From Bacteroidota bacterium (lineage in GTDB: Bacteria > Bacteroidota > Bacteroidia > Palsa-965): 64,000 nt of DNA. Made by a program: the position numbers and the translations under genes. The first letter of the stretch is position 1, and every line of letters begins with the position of its first letter. Positions 21,058-26,053 of this stretch are shown piece by piece. The stretch covers positions 1-64,000 of the forward strand of contig JADBYT010000010.1 in assembly GCA_020402865.1 (NCBI GenBank). Direction: 5' to 3'. The notes below the pieces were generated by a model that saw only the letters and a program-made list of their open reading frames with translations, ran no database searches and was not told the DNA's origin.

Positions 21058-22917
21058 GTGAATATACTCAGGTTGATACTGCTGCCCGCCATGGTGCTTT
21101 TTTTCGCACCTCAGGCCGCGCTTTGTCAGCCTGTACCTCCGCAAACCGTTTCGCCCGATGAGCAGCTGGCCGGACAATACTACGCTGCCGGCGAGTACGA
21201 CAAGGCTGTGGTGTATTACGAGAAATTGTACGACCGCAATCCCATTGCGCTTTATTACAATTATTATCTCAACTGCCTCATTCAGACAAAAAACTTCCGC
21301 AAGGCCGAGAAGGTTGTGACCCGCCAGAGCAAACGCTATCCGCTCGATCTGCGCTTCCGCGTGGATATGGGGCGTGTGTACCGGGCGCAGGGCGATGAAG
21401 AAAAGGCAAAAAAGGAATTCAATGCAGCCATCAACGCCATTAATTCGATGTCGTCTGCCACGGCGGTGATTGATCTTGCCAATGCTTTTCTTGGACTTAA
21501 TGAAACGCAGTTTGCCATAGATGCACTCAAACGCGGGCGCCGCGAAATGGGCGAACGGTACAGCTTTGGCAACGAACTGGCAGAAGTGTATTTCCTGCGC
21601 AAGGAATATGCATTGATGGTGAATGAATGCCTTGATCTGGCTGCGCAGAACTCAATGGGCGAACGGCAGCAGGTGCAAAACAGATTGCAGGCCTGGATGG
21701 ATGAAGACCGCGAAGAAAAAGTGGAACCTGCGCTGCGCGCTGAATTACTGCGACGCTCGCAGAAAGAACCCGATAAACTGATCTGGTCGGAAATGCTGAT
21801 GTGGCTGTTTATGCAGCAGAAAGATTTCCGCGCTGCCATGGTGCAGGCAAAAGCCATCGACAAACGCCGCAGGGCGGAAGGCAGCACGGTGATGGAACTT
21901 GCCGAGGTGGCACGTGCCAATGAAGAATATGATGCGGCCATTTCTGGCTATGACTATGTGATTTCACTCGGGCCCGCTGCACTAAACTATCGCAAAGCCC
22001 GTACCGACAGGGTTACGGTGCGCAGCGAACAACTTACCTCCCGCAGTAACTACACCCGCGCCGAGCTTATCCAGCTCGAAACAGAAATGAAAACCACGCT
22101 CACCGAGCTTGGCGAAGACGGCACCACCATTGATCTCATGCGTAGCCTTGCTCACCTGCAGGCATTCTACCTGTTCAAAACCGGCGAAGCCGTGCAGCTG
22201 CTCGAAAAAGCCATTGCACTGCCCGGCGTAAACCCCGAAAAACAAGCAGAAAGCAAACTCGAACTCGGCGATGTACTGCTGCTCGACGGGCAGGTGTGGG
22301 AAGCCTCGCTGCGCTACTCACAGGTGGAAAAAGCATTCAAACGCGAACCCGTAGGACAAGAGGCAAAATACCGCAACGCAAAAGTGGCCTTCTACATCGG
22401 CGATTTTAAATGGTCGCAGGTGCAGCTCAATGTGCTCAAAGGCTCCACATCAAAACTCATTTCAAACGACGCGATGTATTTGTCGATTCTTATTACCGAC
22501 AATTTCGCGCTCGACAGCAATCCCGAACCGCTCAACTGGTTTGCACAGGCCGACCTCATGCTGTTTCAGAACCGCTTCGAGCAGGCCGGCATTTACCTCG
22601 ATTCGGTTGACCGAATGTATTCCACCCACTCCATTGCCGACGATGTACTCTTTCTGCGATACCGTATCGCAATACGTCAGCAAAAATGGAGTGAGGCCGC
22701 CACGCACCTCAACAAACTACTCAGCATGTACAGCGATGATGTGCTTGCCGACGATGCCCTTTTCCGCCTTGCCGAATTGTACGAGTATCACCTCGACGAT
22801 AAAACAAAGGCCATGGAATGCTACCAGAAACTGCTCACGCAATATCCCGGCAGTTTGTTTGTGGTAGATGCCCGTAAACGCTACCGCGAACTACGCGGTG
22901 ATAAAGTTGCCGACTGA
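21058..22917 (+). CDS. Exported tetratricopeptide-repeat protein
   Basis: 619 residues. The start is GTG 21058, because the signal peptide (LRLILLPAMVLFFAPQAALCQ) begins there; the first ATG would cut into it. TPR-like helical pairs run through the protein, for example GQYYAAGEYDKAVVYYEKLY (about residues 40-60), VDMGRVYRAQGDEEKAKKEF, and near the C-terminus LFRLAELYEYHLDDKTKAME with YQKLLTQYPGSLFVVDARKR. This resembles periplasmic or outer-membrane-associated scaffolds of the BamD/YfgC-like TPR class; the partner is unknown. The next gene's ATG overlaps its TGA by 1 nt. Confidence 0.85.
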   Translation: MNILRLILLPAMVLFFAPQAALCQPVPPQTVSPDEQLAGQYYAAGEYDKAVVYYEKLYDRNPIALYYNYYLNCLIQTKNFRKAEKVVTRQSKRYPLDLRFRVDMGRVYRAQGDEEKAKKEFNAAINAINSMSSATAVIDLANAFLGLNETQFAIDALKRGRREMGERYSFGNELAEVYFLRKEYALMVNECLDLAAQNSMGERQQVQNRLQAWMDEDREEKVEPALRAELLRRSQKEPDKLIWSEMLMWLFMQQKDFRAAMVQAKAIDKRRRAEGSTVMELAEVARANEEYDAAISGYDYVISLGPAALNYRKARTDRVTVRSEQLTSRSNYTRAELIQLETEMKTTLTELGEDGTTIDLMRSLAHLQAFYLFKTGEAVQLLEKAIALPGVNPEKQAESKLELGDVLLLDGQVWEASLRYSQVEKAFKREPVGQEAKYRNAKVAFYIGDFKWSQVQLNVLKGSTSKLISNDAMYLSILITDNFALDSNPEPLNWFAQADLMLFQNRFEQAGIYLDSVDRMYSTHSIADDVLFLRYRIAIRQQKWSEAATHLNKLLSMYSDDVLADDALFRLAELYEYHLDDKTKAMECYQKLLTQYPGSLFVVDARKRYRELRGDKVAD

Positions 22918-23219
22918 TGATTTTATACAACGTTACCATCAATGTTGATGATGATGTGCACGATGAATGGCTGCACTGGATGAAAACCGTGCATGTGCCT
23001 GATGTGCTTGCTACCGGCTGTTTTATGGAAGGCCGCATTTTCCGTATCAACGTGGAAGAACAGCAGGGAAAAAGCTATTCGTTTCAATATCGTGCGGCAA
23101 CCATTGATGATTACGAGCGTTACAAAACAAACCACGCTCCGGCGCTTCAGAAAGATGTGATAAACCGCTACAACGGAAAATTTGTAGCCTTCCGCACCGT
23201 GCTGGAAGAAGTCAAGTAG
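22917..23219 (+). CDS. DUF4286 family protein
   Basis: 100 residues, the family's usual size. It starts MILYNVTINVDDDVHDEWLH and contains HVPDVLATGCF, typical of DUF4286, a ferredoxin-like-fold family common in Bacteroidota with no proven function. It is translationally coupled to the TPR gene (TGATG overlap). In many relatives this family lies close to rsmA (from memory, not checked). Here an ATPase/nuclease gene separates them. Confidence 0.85.
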   Translation: MILYNVTINVDDDVHDEWLHWMKTVHVPDVLATGCFMEGRIFRINVEEQQGKSYSFQYRAATIDDYERYKTNHAPALQKDVINRYNGKFVAFRTVLEEVK

Positions 23220-23278
23220 TTACTGTTCACGAAATATCGACTACCGTAGCATAAAATCGCCATTACTCATCTAATCTT

Positions 23279-23299
23279 ATTATTTTTAAGAAAAATAAT
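23279..23299. repeat. Perfect 9-bp inverted repeat before the OLD-type gene
   Basis: ATTATTTTT, a 3-nt spacer (AAG), then AAAAATAAT, ending 8 nt before ATG 23308. It could be an operator for a dimeric regulator or a small leader hairpin. No regulator gene is adjacent. Confidence 0.6.
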
Positions 23300-23307
23300 C
23301 ACTAGAA

Positions 23308-25260
23308 ATGTATATACAATCCTTTCGGTTAGTCAATTTTAAATCCTTCAAAAATTCAGTTTTTCACCTGAATGAAGATATTAATTTGCTTACCGGTTTA
23401 AATAACTCTGGAAAAACCACCGTGCTTGAGGCATTGGCTCTTTGGCATGAGTTATTTACAAAAATGATTGAGCAGCAGGGGCGTACAAAGAAAAAAAGAG
23501 ATGGAGTAAATATAGGTGACTATTTTATCGCCCAACTAGCTTGGTATTTTTCACATCACGATATAGAATGTGTTCGAATTACTAATCAGAATGAGTTATT
23601 TCATAATCTTGATGATTCGCAGGGAATTGAATTAGAAGCCTCGTTAATCAATGACAATGAAGAAAAGTTGAGCATTGGCTTTAGGATAAACTACTCAAAA
23701 GGGAATCGTCTTTCCGTACAACTTATTCAGCAACTTGACATTCCCTTGTTTAACCGGTTTTTCTCCGGCTACTTCCCAACCCCGATAAATCAGATTTATG
23801 CTTCTCCAGTAGCATTTATTCGAAAGCTAGAATCGTTTGAAACAAACCCTCGCATACAACGTTTGGTAAGCGAAAGAGAATCGGCAGTTGTACTACGAAA
23901 CCGGCTTTATAATTTACGAACCCGAGGCAATACCGACTGGTCGAATTATGAAAATGATTTATCATTTGTGTTAGCTGGCGAACCGAATCAGGTTTCCTTT
24001 GAGTTTACAGGAGACAAAAACAGCGATGTGGAAATTGCTGTGCGCGTAAGTGTGGGTAATAAAAGAATAATGACCGAACTGTCTCAAATGGGAAGCGGTA
24101 CAGTTCAGATCATCGAAATACTCCTTGCCATTTACGAGCGAAAGGCGGCATTCACACTTGTTTTGCTTGATGAACCTGATTCACATATTCACCGCGACAT
24201 ACAAAAACGCTTATTGCAAACACTTACCGACCGTTCATCTGGCAATCAGATCGTATTAACATCTCACAACGAAAGTCTAATCAGAAGCACTCCTCCTTCA
24301 CAAGTTTTTCACGTAACCGGAGCAGAGCAATCTGCCTATTATCCCATTATTCATGGATACAAACCAAAAGCCGGAGGACGTGGTTTCAAAGCCACTCCAC
24401 AGTTAAAAGTACTACAAAGTCTTGGATATGAATCAACGCTTGATTTTCTGAATGCGGTAGAGGCTGATATTATTTTTATTGTAGAAGGTAATACTGATGC
24501 ATATTATATAGATTATATACTTAATAATAAATACAACAATAGAAAAGTTAGAGCCATGTACTGGACTTGCAGCAGCTTGTCGGTAATGTTTGATAGAATT
24601 AACTTCTACAAAGAATTATTTACCTCAATAAAGAATAAAAAAACACTATGGGAGAAATCGGTACTGGTATTCGATAAGGATTTCATTACCGAATCTCAAC
24701 GCAAGAAATTAGCAGCACGAATTCAGAAAGACTATAAAATAAAAACTCATATTTGGAGGTCAAGAACTTTTGAAGCTACGTTGTTATCAGAACCGGATAA
24801 ATTTGAGCGGATGCTGGAAGGTTTTTTGAAAACCAAAGTAAAATCAGGCTCAGTGGATCTGGGATTTTTGCGTAAAACTATATTTAATGAATCTTCCATA
24901 CTATGCAAAATAAAATATCAATACATAAAAGACTTTAATGACAAAGGCTTATTGAAAGATGAAATCGACAGGGTAAAGAATCTGATTGGTGAAATGGGTA
25001 TAAAAGATGTGTTTCAGGGAAAAGATGGTTCATTTGCACCTCAGTTCTTCAACGAAATTACCATAGATATTGAAGCCGGGCGACTTAACCAGATTGCCGA
25101 TAAGGACGATGTGGCACAACTAATTAGAGCAATTTGTACAGAATTTGGTGTAACCTCATTACCCGATGACATTAACGAATATTTTGAGGAATTGGTGGCT
25201 CCCATAAAACACGACTGGTATAAGGAATGGGACGAATTAATCAGCTTAATTGAAAGCTGA
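23308..25260 (+). CDS. OLD-type AAA/ABC ATPase fused to TOPRIM nuclease domain
   Basis: 650 residues. N-terminal RecF/SMC-like ATPase: Walker A GLNNSGKTT (30-38), signature-like LSQMGSG (~257), Walker B LVLLDEPDSHIH (~284) and H-loop VLTSHNES (~316). A TOPRIM domain follows: IFIVEGNTDAYY (~390) and LVFDKDF (~453). This matches overcoming-lysogenization-defect (OLD) nucleases, known from phage P2 and from defence systems such as Gabija (GajA) and PARIS. No UvrD helicase, reverse transcriptase or methylase is beside it, so it resembles solitary class 1 OLD genes. It is clearly more AT-rich than its neighbours and ends 1 nt before rsmA, which suggests an inserted gene. Antiphage activity is inferred. 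Confidence 0.88.
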   Translation: MYIQSFRLVNFKSFKNSVFHLNEDINLLTGLNNSGKTTVLEALALWHELFTKMIEQQGRTKKKRDGVNIGDYFIAQLAWYFSHHDIECVRITNQNELFHNLDDSQGIELEASLINDNEEKLSIGFRINYSKGNRLSVQLIQQLDIPLFNRFFSGYFPTPINQIYASPVAFIRKLESFETNPRIQRLVSERESAVVLRNRLYNLRTRGNTDWSNYENDLSFVLAGEPNQVSFEFTGDKNSDVEIAVRVSVGNKRIMTELSQMGSGTVQIIEILLAIYERKAAFTLVLLDEPDSHIHRDIQKRLLQTLTDRSSGNQIVLTSHNESLIRSTPPSQVFHVTGAEQSAYYPIIHGYKPKAGGRGFKATPQLKVLQSLGYESTLDFLNAVEADIIFIVEGNTDAYYIDYILNNKYNNRKVRAMYWTCSSLSVMFDRINFYKELFTSIKNKKTLWEKSVLVFDKDFITESQRKKLAARIQKDYKIKTHIWRSRTFEATLLSEPDKFERMLEGFLKTKVKSGSVDLGFLRKTIFNESSILCKIKYQYIKDFNDKGLLKDEIDRVKNLIGEMGIKDVFQGKDGSFAPQFFNEITIDIEAGRLNQIADKDDVAQLIRAICTEFGVTSLPDDINEYFEELVAPIKHDWYKEWDELISLIES

Positions 25261-25261
25261 A

Positions 25262-26053
25262 ATGGAAGCAGTACGCGCAAAAAAACACCTTGGCCAGCAT
25301 TTTCTGCGCGATGAAAACATTGCCCGCAAAATTGCCGAAAGCCTTCGCCGCAACGGAAGCTATACACAGGTGCTCGAAATAGGGCCCGGCATGGGTGTGC
25401 TTACCAAATACCTTTTGCAGCAACCGGAAATTGAAACCTGGGTGGCCGAAATCGATACTGAATCTGTAGCTTATTTACAGGAACATTATCCCGCACTGGC
25501 TCCGCGCATTATTGCCGGCGATTTTCTGCGCATGAAACCCGAACAGTATTTCAGCAGCAACTTTGCAGTAATCGGTAATTTCCCCTACAATATTTCTTCG
25601 CAAATTCTTTTCAAAGTACTCGAACATCGCAATCAGGTGCCCGAACTGGTGGGCATGTTTCAGAAAGAAGTGGCCGAACGTGTGGCCGAGCCGCCGGGCT
25701 CAAAAACGTATGGTATTCTCAGCGTACTGCTTCAGGCCTGGTACAAAATCGAATACCTGTTTACGGTGCATGAAAATGTATTTTCACCGCCACCCAAAGT
25801 GAAATCGGCCGTGATCCGGCTTACACGTAACGATACGGTGCTGCTTGGCTGCGATGAAAAACTCTTTACCGCCGTGGTTAAAGCCGCATTTAACCAGCGC
25901 CGCAAAACCATACGCAATGCCGTAAAGGCATTTGCCATAAAACCCGGCTTCGAAAACCACGAATACTTTGCCAACCGGGCCGAAAAACTTTCGGTAGCCG
26001 ATTTTGTGGCGCTCACCAATATGCTTGAGGTGCGGCAACCAAATGTAAAATAA
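25262..26053 (+). CDS. rsmA: 16S rRNA dimethyladenosine transferase
   Basis: 263 residues. SAM-dependent enzyme dimethylating two adjacent adenines (A1518/A1519, E. coli numbering) in 16S rRNA helix 45. It starts MEAVRAKKHLGQHFLRDENI, the canonical KsgA N-terminus, so ATG 25262 is taken although a longer frame overlaps the upstream gene. The SAM-binding motif is EIGPGMGVLT (~40) and the target-adenine motif is GNFPYNIS (~105). The C-terminal helical domain is intact (AAFNQRRKTIRNA). It keeps no recognisable promoter of its own, so it is probably read from the upstream genes. Confidence 0.97.
   Translation: MEAVRAKKHLGQHFLRDENIARKIAESLRRNGSYTQVLEIGPGMGVLTKYLLQQPEIETWVAEIDTESVAYLQEHYPALAPRIIAGDFLRMKPEQYFSSNFAVIGNFPYNISSQILFKVLEHRNQVPELVGMFQKEVAERVAEPPGSKTYGILSVLLQAWYKIEYLFTVHENVFSPPPKVKSAVIRLTRNDTVLLGCDEKLFTAVVKAAFNQRRKTIRNAVKAFAIKPGFENHEYFANRAEKLSVADFVALTNMLEVRQPNVK

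Follow-up and report, generated by a model that had tools for sequence, protein, structure and literature searches.

The gene considered here is an intact open reading frame of 650 codons in the window, that is, in the whole 64,000-nucleotide stretch of DNA that was analysed. Its coordinates are exactly those given in a preliminary description, which had placed the gene between a DUF4286 gene and rsmA, ending 1 nt ahead of the latter (Table 1). Both neighbours were recovered, and after the TGA stop codon a single base precedes the rsmA ATG at position 25262. The gene is present in one copy in the source genome. With a GC content of 37% (0.371) and a GC3 of 34% (0.339), compared with 0.455–0.551 and 0.472–0.641 for the neighbouring genes, it is indeed an AT-rich gene in surroundings of ordinary composition. 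The absence of an integrase and of attachment repeats was also confirmed, as no integrase was found among the neighbouring genes read and no flanking direct repeat, attachment repeat or target-site duplication exceeded chance. Just 5′ of the gene start, the leader contains a perfect AT-only inverted repeat, ATTATTTTT-AAG-AAAAATAAT, which could be an operator or could have arisen by chance. No signal of RNA structure was detected in the 88-nt leader, whose folding is no better than that of shuffled sequences (z −0.23).

Table 1. Positions of the genes, motifs and structural parts at the DUF4286-rsmA locus.
Feature	Position	Strand	Evidence
DUF4286 gene, left neighbour, normal upstream partner of rsmA	22917..23219	+	PF14114, E 1.6e-37; adjoins rsmA in relatives
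Leader between DUF4286 and the gene, 88 nt	23220..23307	.	Contains perfect 9-bp AT-only palindrome, 23279-23299
Inserted gene, ABC-type ATPase fused to AriB-like TOPRIM domain, 650 aa	23308..25260	+	Pfam, 42-member alignment, predicted folds
N-terminal ATPase half, aa 1-361	23308..24390	+	AAA_21, AAA_15; VIA fold matches PtuA, AriA
Walker A GLNNSGKT, aa 30-37	23395..23418	+	G30, N32, G35, K36 invariant in 42 members; T37 nearly
ABC signature-like MGSGTVQ, aa 261-267	24088..24108	+	G262, S263, G264, Q267 invariant (42 members)
Walker B and following segment LVLLDEPDSHIHRDIQK, aa 284-300	24157..24207	+	D288, E289, P290, D291, S292, H295, R296, Q299 invariant
TOPRIM fold, aa 378-495	24439..24792	+	Beta/alpha order in AF2 models; TOPRIM profile matches in relatives
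TOPRIM acidic motif 1 VEGNTD, aa 392-397	24481..24498	+	E393, G394, D397 invariant (42 members)
TOPRIM acidic motif 2 DKD, aa 456-458	24673..24681	+	D456, D458 invariant (42 members)
Third conserved acidic site T-x-E, aa 487-489	24766..24774	+	T487, E489 invariant (42 members)
C-terminal helical region, aa 496-650	24793..25257	+	AF2 model helices; within range aligned to AriB
rsmA, 16S rRNA adenine dimethyltransferase, right neighbour	25262..26053	+	PF00398, E 1.2e-49

The Walker, signature and TOPRIM motifs recognized earlier are all present, with key residues that are invariant in an alignment of 42 family members. The ATPase domain scores above the Pfam cut-offs, both for AAA_21 (E 9.3e-20, 72.3 bits, cut-off 27) and for AAA_15 (E 2e-16, 61 bits, cut-off 32.1); the Walker B core reads VLLDEPDSH and an H-loop, TSHNES, is also found. 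Pfam yields no TOPRIM match in the window protein itself, where the domain is visible in the predicted fold. Among the 42 relatives, TOPRIM profiles match at E≤1 in the case of DUF3226 (33), OLD-like_TOPRIM (25) and Toprim (21).

Searching genomes with one sequence alone gave no relatives. A profile of three rows, built with the help of full-length relatives from a Bacteroidota genome (36%) and a Picosynechococcus plasmid (34%), detected about 50 full-length relatives in species genomes belonging to the Bacteroidota, Cyanobacteriota, Pseudomonadota, Campylobacterota, Ignavibacteriota, Myxococcota, Planctomycetota and Lentisphaerota. The phyla are mixed in the tree of the family and its distribution is patchy. 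Phage genome records contain no match to the gene, and such relatives as occur on viral contigs are partial or weak. The relatives are mostly solitary and no neighbour family is constant across genera; where neighbours recur, they mainly reflect orthologous loci, as in Microcystis, where the gene occupies one site in several genomes. A few contexts are more telling and point to defence. The relative in PCC 7117 (L058) is part of a helicase/DUF1156/DUF499 (Hma-like) operon, that of Flavobacterium aurantiibacter (L086/L122) is flanked by type III Mod-like (DNA methylase) and Res-like genes, and a further one (L123) adjoins a DNA methylase. In another Flavobacterium (L096) a reverse transcriptase gene lies just upstream (RVT_1, E 2.6e-20) and a homologue of this gene occupies the same place in a second locus of that genus (L103), both encoding proteins of ~590 aa and situated 61–97 nt 5′ of the relative. 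This gene order suggests reuse as a retron-like or reverse transcriptase-linked effector.

The preliminary description took the gene for a single-gene insertion, and computation shows that it is one. An orthologue is absent from all six congeners and from the other family relatives searched, with only short ATPase matches elsewhere. DUF4286 and rsmA adjoin in the congeners and in the four other family genomes with a readable junction, the exception being genome G006, which carries at this position a different AT-rich gene of the Abi_2 type (PF07751, E 4e-47). The comparison of the DUF4286-rsmA interval thus does not reveal a gene that is fixed at this site throughout the relatives and matches them in composition. 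It could still be argued that an AT-rich native gene has been lost in the relatives and that its composition is an artefact unrelated to any insertion, inasmuch as low GC is common to the whole family and hence no independent proof of import. However, parallel and precise losses would be needed in each of the six congeners as well as in every other family genome whose junction was read, and the nearest relatives, at most 39% identical, are located in other families and phyla. We consider such a scenario hardly credible. The composition itself does require a different reading from the one initially given. The GC content of the relatives lies on average 9.0 points below that of the flanking coding sequence (sd 3.8, n = 50) while tracking host GC (r = 0.91), and nearly all of them are AT-richer than their hosts. 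Since low GC is thus a trait of the family, it is weak evidence of recent arrival, and the argument that the gene is AT-rich and therefore recently imported had to be abandoned. The case for insertion rests instead on synteny and on a tree in which the phyla are mixed.

A second pair of occupied and empty sites was found in Kapaibacterium, where a relative of the gene lies between gcvT and pepA, the leucyl aminopeptidase gene, all on one strand (genome G565), while in a related genome (G623) only 87 nt separate gcvT from pepA. This comparison rests on one genome, since most of the other G565 relatives have gcvT and pepA far apart or on different contigs. The two pairs indicate that genes of this kind enter housekeeping operons on their own.

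The exception at the DUF4286-rsmA junction raises the question of whether this site is a hotspot for defence genes in the genus, the window gene being one item of a rotating cargo. Two of the seven genus genomes carry unrelated AT-rich genes of defence type exactly there, and both inserts are co-directional with rsmA and end 1–4 nt ahead of its start. On the other hand, among the six junctions of the serS-DUF4286-rsmA-mgtE-dehydrogenase block, which served as a control in ten family genomes, two others hold one insertion event each, one in G006 and one common to two genomes of a single genus. Because there are four events in all and two of them fall at one junction, which by our own estimate would happen by chance about 1 time in 8, a hotspot is not statistically supported. 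The inserts share no repeats and no recombinase, and in more distant genomes most of them are genes unrelated to defence. A hotspot at this junction appears rather doubtful and is kept as a lead. In the wider class, the longer DUF4286-rsmA gaps among the junctions listed carry mixed cargo, including genes on the opposite strand.

Individual inserts at this junction have features of their own. The gene in G006 (L064, C122:43000-49000) encodes a 316-aa Abi_2 (AbiF-like) protein and ends 3 nt before the rsmA start; upstream of it, a hairpin-like stretch is followed by a T-run, perhaps an RNA like those known to accompany AbiF. Rfam gave no match at E≤0.1, either in this locus or in the window insert. 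In G218 (L060, C22:15500-20500), an ORF of the NarE family (PF21641) and a second ORF are present, and at the left edge of the insert 22 nt repeat the 5′ end of rsmA (22 of 23 aligned positions), as if insertion had duplicated or reused the rsmA start. The junction of G226 (L059, C25:31000-36500) is filled by a gene for a hydrophobic protein of 489 aa without a Pfam match, probably a membrane protein.

How rsmA would be expressed downstream of the insert can be approached from the gene order. The gaps between DUF4286 and rsmA are short in the relatives, and rsmA is therefore probably part of that operon. Scans of the insert for promoters and terminators found no site above shuffled sequences, and TAnnTTTG, with no match just 5′ of the gene, is no more frequent in the window than expected by chance. 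Since no terminator in the insert stands out above chance, read-through into rsmA is plausible on sequence grounds, and the 1-nt gap would also suit co-transcription. The gene itself is probably expressed from the host operon or from a local promoter, with rsmA probably co-transcribed through it.

The assignment of the protein draws on predicted structures. Mean pLDDT is 87.3 in the AlphaFold model of the full-length chain, with which fold searches covered mainly the ATPase half; the C-terminal half was also folded alone (pLDDT 89.8). In VIA, the first 377 residues are closest to PtuA (9nnh_C, Z 22.8), followed by SMC heads, and reach Z 17.6 with AriA (8v46_B). The best match of the C-terminal half is AriB of the PARIS system (8ux9_A), with Z 13.0 over 210 residues (model 8-288 and AriB 5-308); another AriB match has Z 11.5 and PH0156 follows at 8.1, whereas other TOPRIM proteins are more distant (OLD Z 6.7–7.5, retron Eco8 7.5, GajA 5.6–5.7). 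The sequence profiles agree with this result, although in a weaker way. With PADLOC, AriA is the top match of the N-terminal half of the window protein (5.3e-21), which also matches mad3, AbiLi, HEC-01A and PDC-M38A, all A proteins of split ATPase and TOPRIM systems. The C-terminal halves of the relatives match the B proteins of these same systems, namely mad4 (17 of 42), AriB and HEC-01B (8 each), AriAB and AbiLii (4 each), and also PDC-M38B. Two observations count against a PARIS-like reading: the likeness to AriB at the sequence level is weak, being limited to those eight relatives and nil for the window protein, and PtuA exceeds AriA as a fold match of the ATPase half. The earlier label "OLD-type" is consequently right in the broad sense of an ABC ATPase combined with a TOPRIM domain, but the TOPRIM half is closer to AriB than to the OLD and Gabija TOPRIMs (Z 5.6–7.5). 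A classic OLD or Gabija assignment, too, was lowered once the C-terminal half had been folded alone.

We somewhat favour the view that horizontal transfer brought the gene here as a one-gene antiphage module, in which an ABC/OLD-type ATPase sensor and an AriB-like TOPRIM nuclease are combined in one chain. Computation establishes the domains, the conserved active-site residues, the tendency of family members to stand alone and a C-terminal fold close to that of AriB. The defence role proposed in the preliminary description fits the family memberships, the relatives in restriction or Hma operons or next to a reverse transcriptase, and the patchy cross-phylum tree; what has changed is the favoured kind of defence gene, now an AriA-AriB-like one. 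In PARIS, the AriA ATPase is described as a sensor that keeps the AriB tRNase silent as long as no phage protein, Ocr for example, has been detected (PMC12409363, PMC9122126), and the architecture together with the effector fold make this logic within one chain the most likely. The ATPase half would keep the TOPRIM half inactive until a phage product is met, perhaps, by analogy with PARIS, a restriction-blocking protein. The TOPRIM half, once freed or activated, would cut nucleic acid, by its predicted fold most likely host tRNA, and translation would stop and the infection be aborted. A match to a solved structure does not in itself disclose the substrate.

Two other functions have to be weighed against this proposal. 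The protein might be a Class 1 OLD nuclease of the classic type, a stand-alone enzyme with ATPase and TOPRIM domains that would nick or degrade DNA in the manner of T. scotoductus OLD or of GajA lacking GajB. The solitary gene and the domain order would suit such an enzyme, OLD-like_TOPRIM figures among the TOPRIM profile matches (25 of 42 relatives at E≤1), and Foldseek with the whole model matched GajA as well as TsOLD (6p74, E 7.7e-11), an entry not among the VIA matches listed. However, TsOLD does not rank near the top for the ATPase half and the C-terminal half is clearly nearer to AriB (Z 13.0 as opposed to 5.6–7.5), so that we regard this alternative as unlikely on balance. A domesticated gene that serves the host at this locus, for instance as a repair or cell-cycle ATPase, seems quite improbable. 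Its catalytic residues are all intact, the archaeal OLD-family member Cran1 serves the cell cycle and not defence (PMC12796447), which also counts against the defence reading in general, and the site is constant across several Microcystis genomes. Yet the gene is absent from all other genus genomes and family relatives searched, and the family is patchy across phyla and has no recurrent housekeeping partner. The AriA-AriB-like reading must also accommodate E. coli YbjD, which remains antiphage even without its TOPRIM domain (PMC13261556).

If the favoured reading is correct, PARIS has a widespread single-gene relative that is unnamed in current profile libraries, and such genes may escape the annotation of defence systems. 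Sensor and effector would then be combined in one chain of 650 aa. The finding, ordinary in kind, is useful as a lead. A bolder generalization, which we put forward as speculation and consider unlikely, would be that uncurated single-chain AriA-AriB-like guards that cut tRNA spread as bare genes, without mobility genes, into the junctions of housekeeping operons across phyla, where they rely on host transcription, and that they are reused in restriction operons and beside reverse transcriptases, the DUF4286-rsmA junction then being a real hotspot of the genus.

Judged by sequence and predicted structure, the gene belongs to the broad OLD superfamily, with both an ABC ATPase and a TOPRIM domain. 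Like the Class 1 OLD proteins (P2 Old, TsOLD, YbjD) it is a stand-alone gene with the ATPase preceding the TOPRIM domain, found in variable neighbourhoods with no neighbour family recurring consistently across genera; unlike them, its TOPRIM half is structurally nearer to AriB than to the OLD TOPRIMs. With GajA of Gabija and PtuA of Septu it has the ATPase superfamily in common, PtuA even providing the best ATPase fold match, but no GajB helicase or PtuB HNH gene adjoins and the TOPRIM half is far from GajA. As the neighbours are DUF4286 and rsmA, Gabija (OLD Class 2) was rejected, as was a Class 3 retron effector at this locus, for want of a reverse transcriptase or ncRNA beside the gene. MAD3-MAD4 of MADS and AbiLi-AbiLii of AbiL resemble the protein half by half, the N-terminal half matching MAD3 and AbiLi and the C-terminal halves of the relatives MAD4 and AbiLii; these are, however, two separate genes in larger systems, in contrast to a single chain that usually stands alone.

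In organisation, the closest known protein is HEC-04/IbfA, a single-gene ABC ATPase-TOPRIM protein of 518 aa with published antiphage activity, and HEC genes have been found inside Hma operons (PMC12111858). Set beside IbfA by description, the window gene is likewise a single gene with the identical domain order, and its relative in the helicase/DUF1156/DUF499 operon recalls the setting of the HEC genes. It is nonetheless longer than IbfA (650 aa), and the HEC-04 profile of PADLOC is absent from the best 25 matches of the window protein and weakly matches the C-terminal half of one relative (0.014). The family may be among the 11 OLD clades that PMC12796447 describes as uncharacterised. As regards PARIS, ATPase and TOPRIM effector are common to both, and fused single-gene AriAB forms have been published (PMC9122126, PMC12409363). 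The published definition of fused PARIS (Rousset et al. 2022, PMC9122126) requires DUF4435 in addition to an AAA_15/AAA_21 ATPase. The ATPase is above threshold (61 and 72.3 bits) and an AriB-like TOPRIM fold is present in the effector half, but DUF4435 has no match at E≤1 in the window protein and matches only 4 of 42 relatives at this level (best 0.0032), and membership of PARIS proper was therefore rejected. The AriAB profile, moreover, aligns over only about 100 residues of the window protein, and the ATPase fold is nearer to PtuA. On its predicted structure, the most fitting description is that of a single-chain AriA-AriB-like protein, a new representative, still uncurated, of a known type of defence protein.
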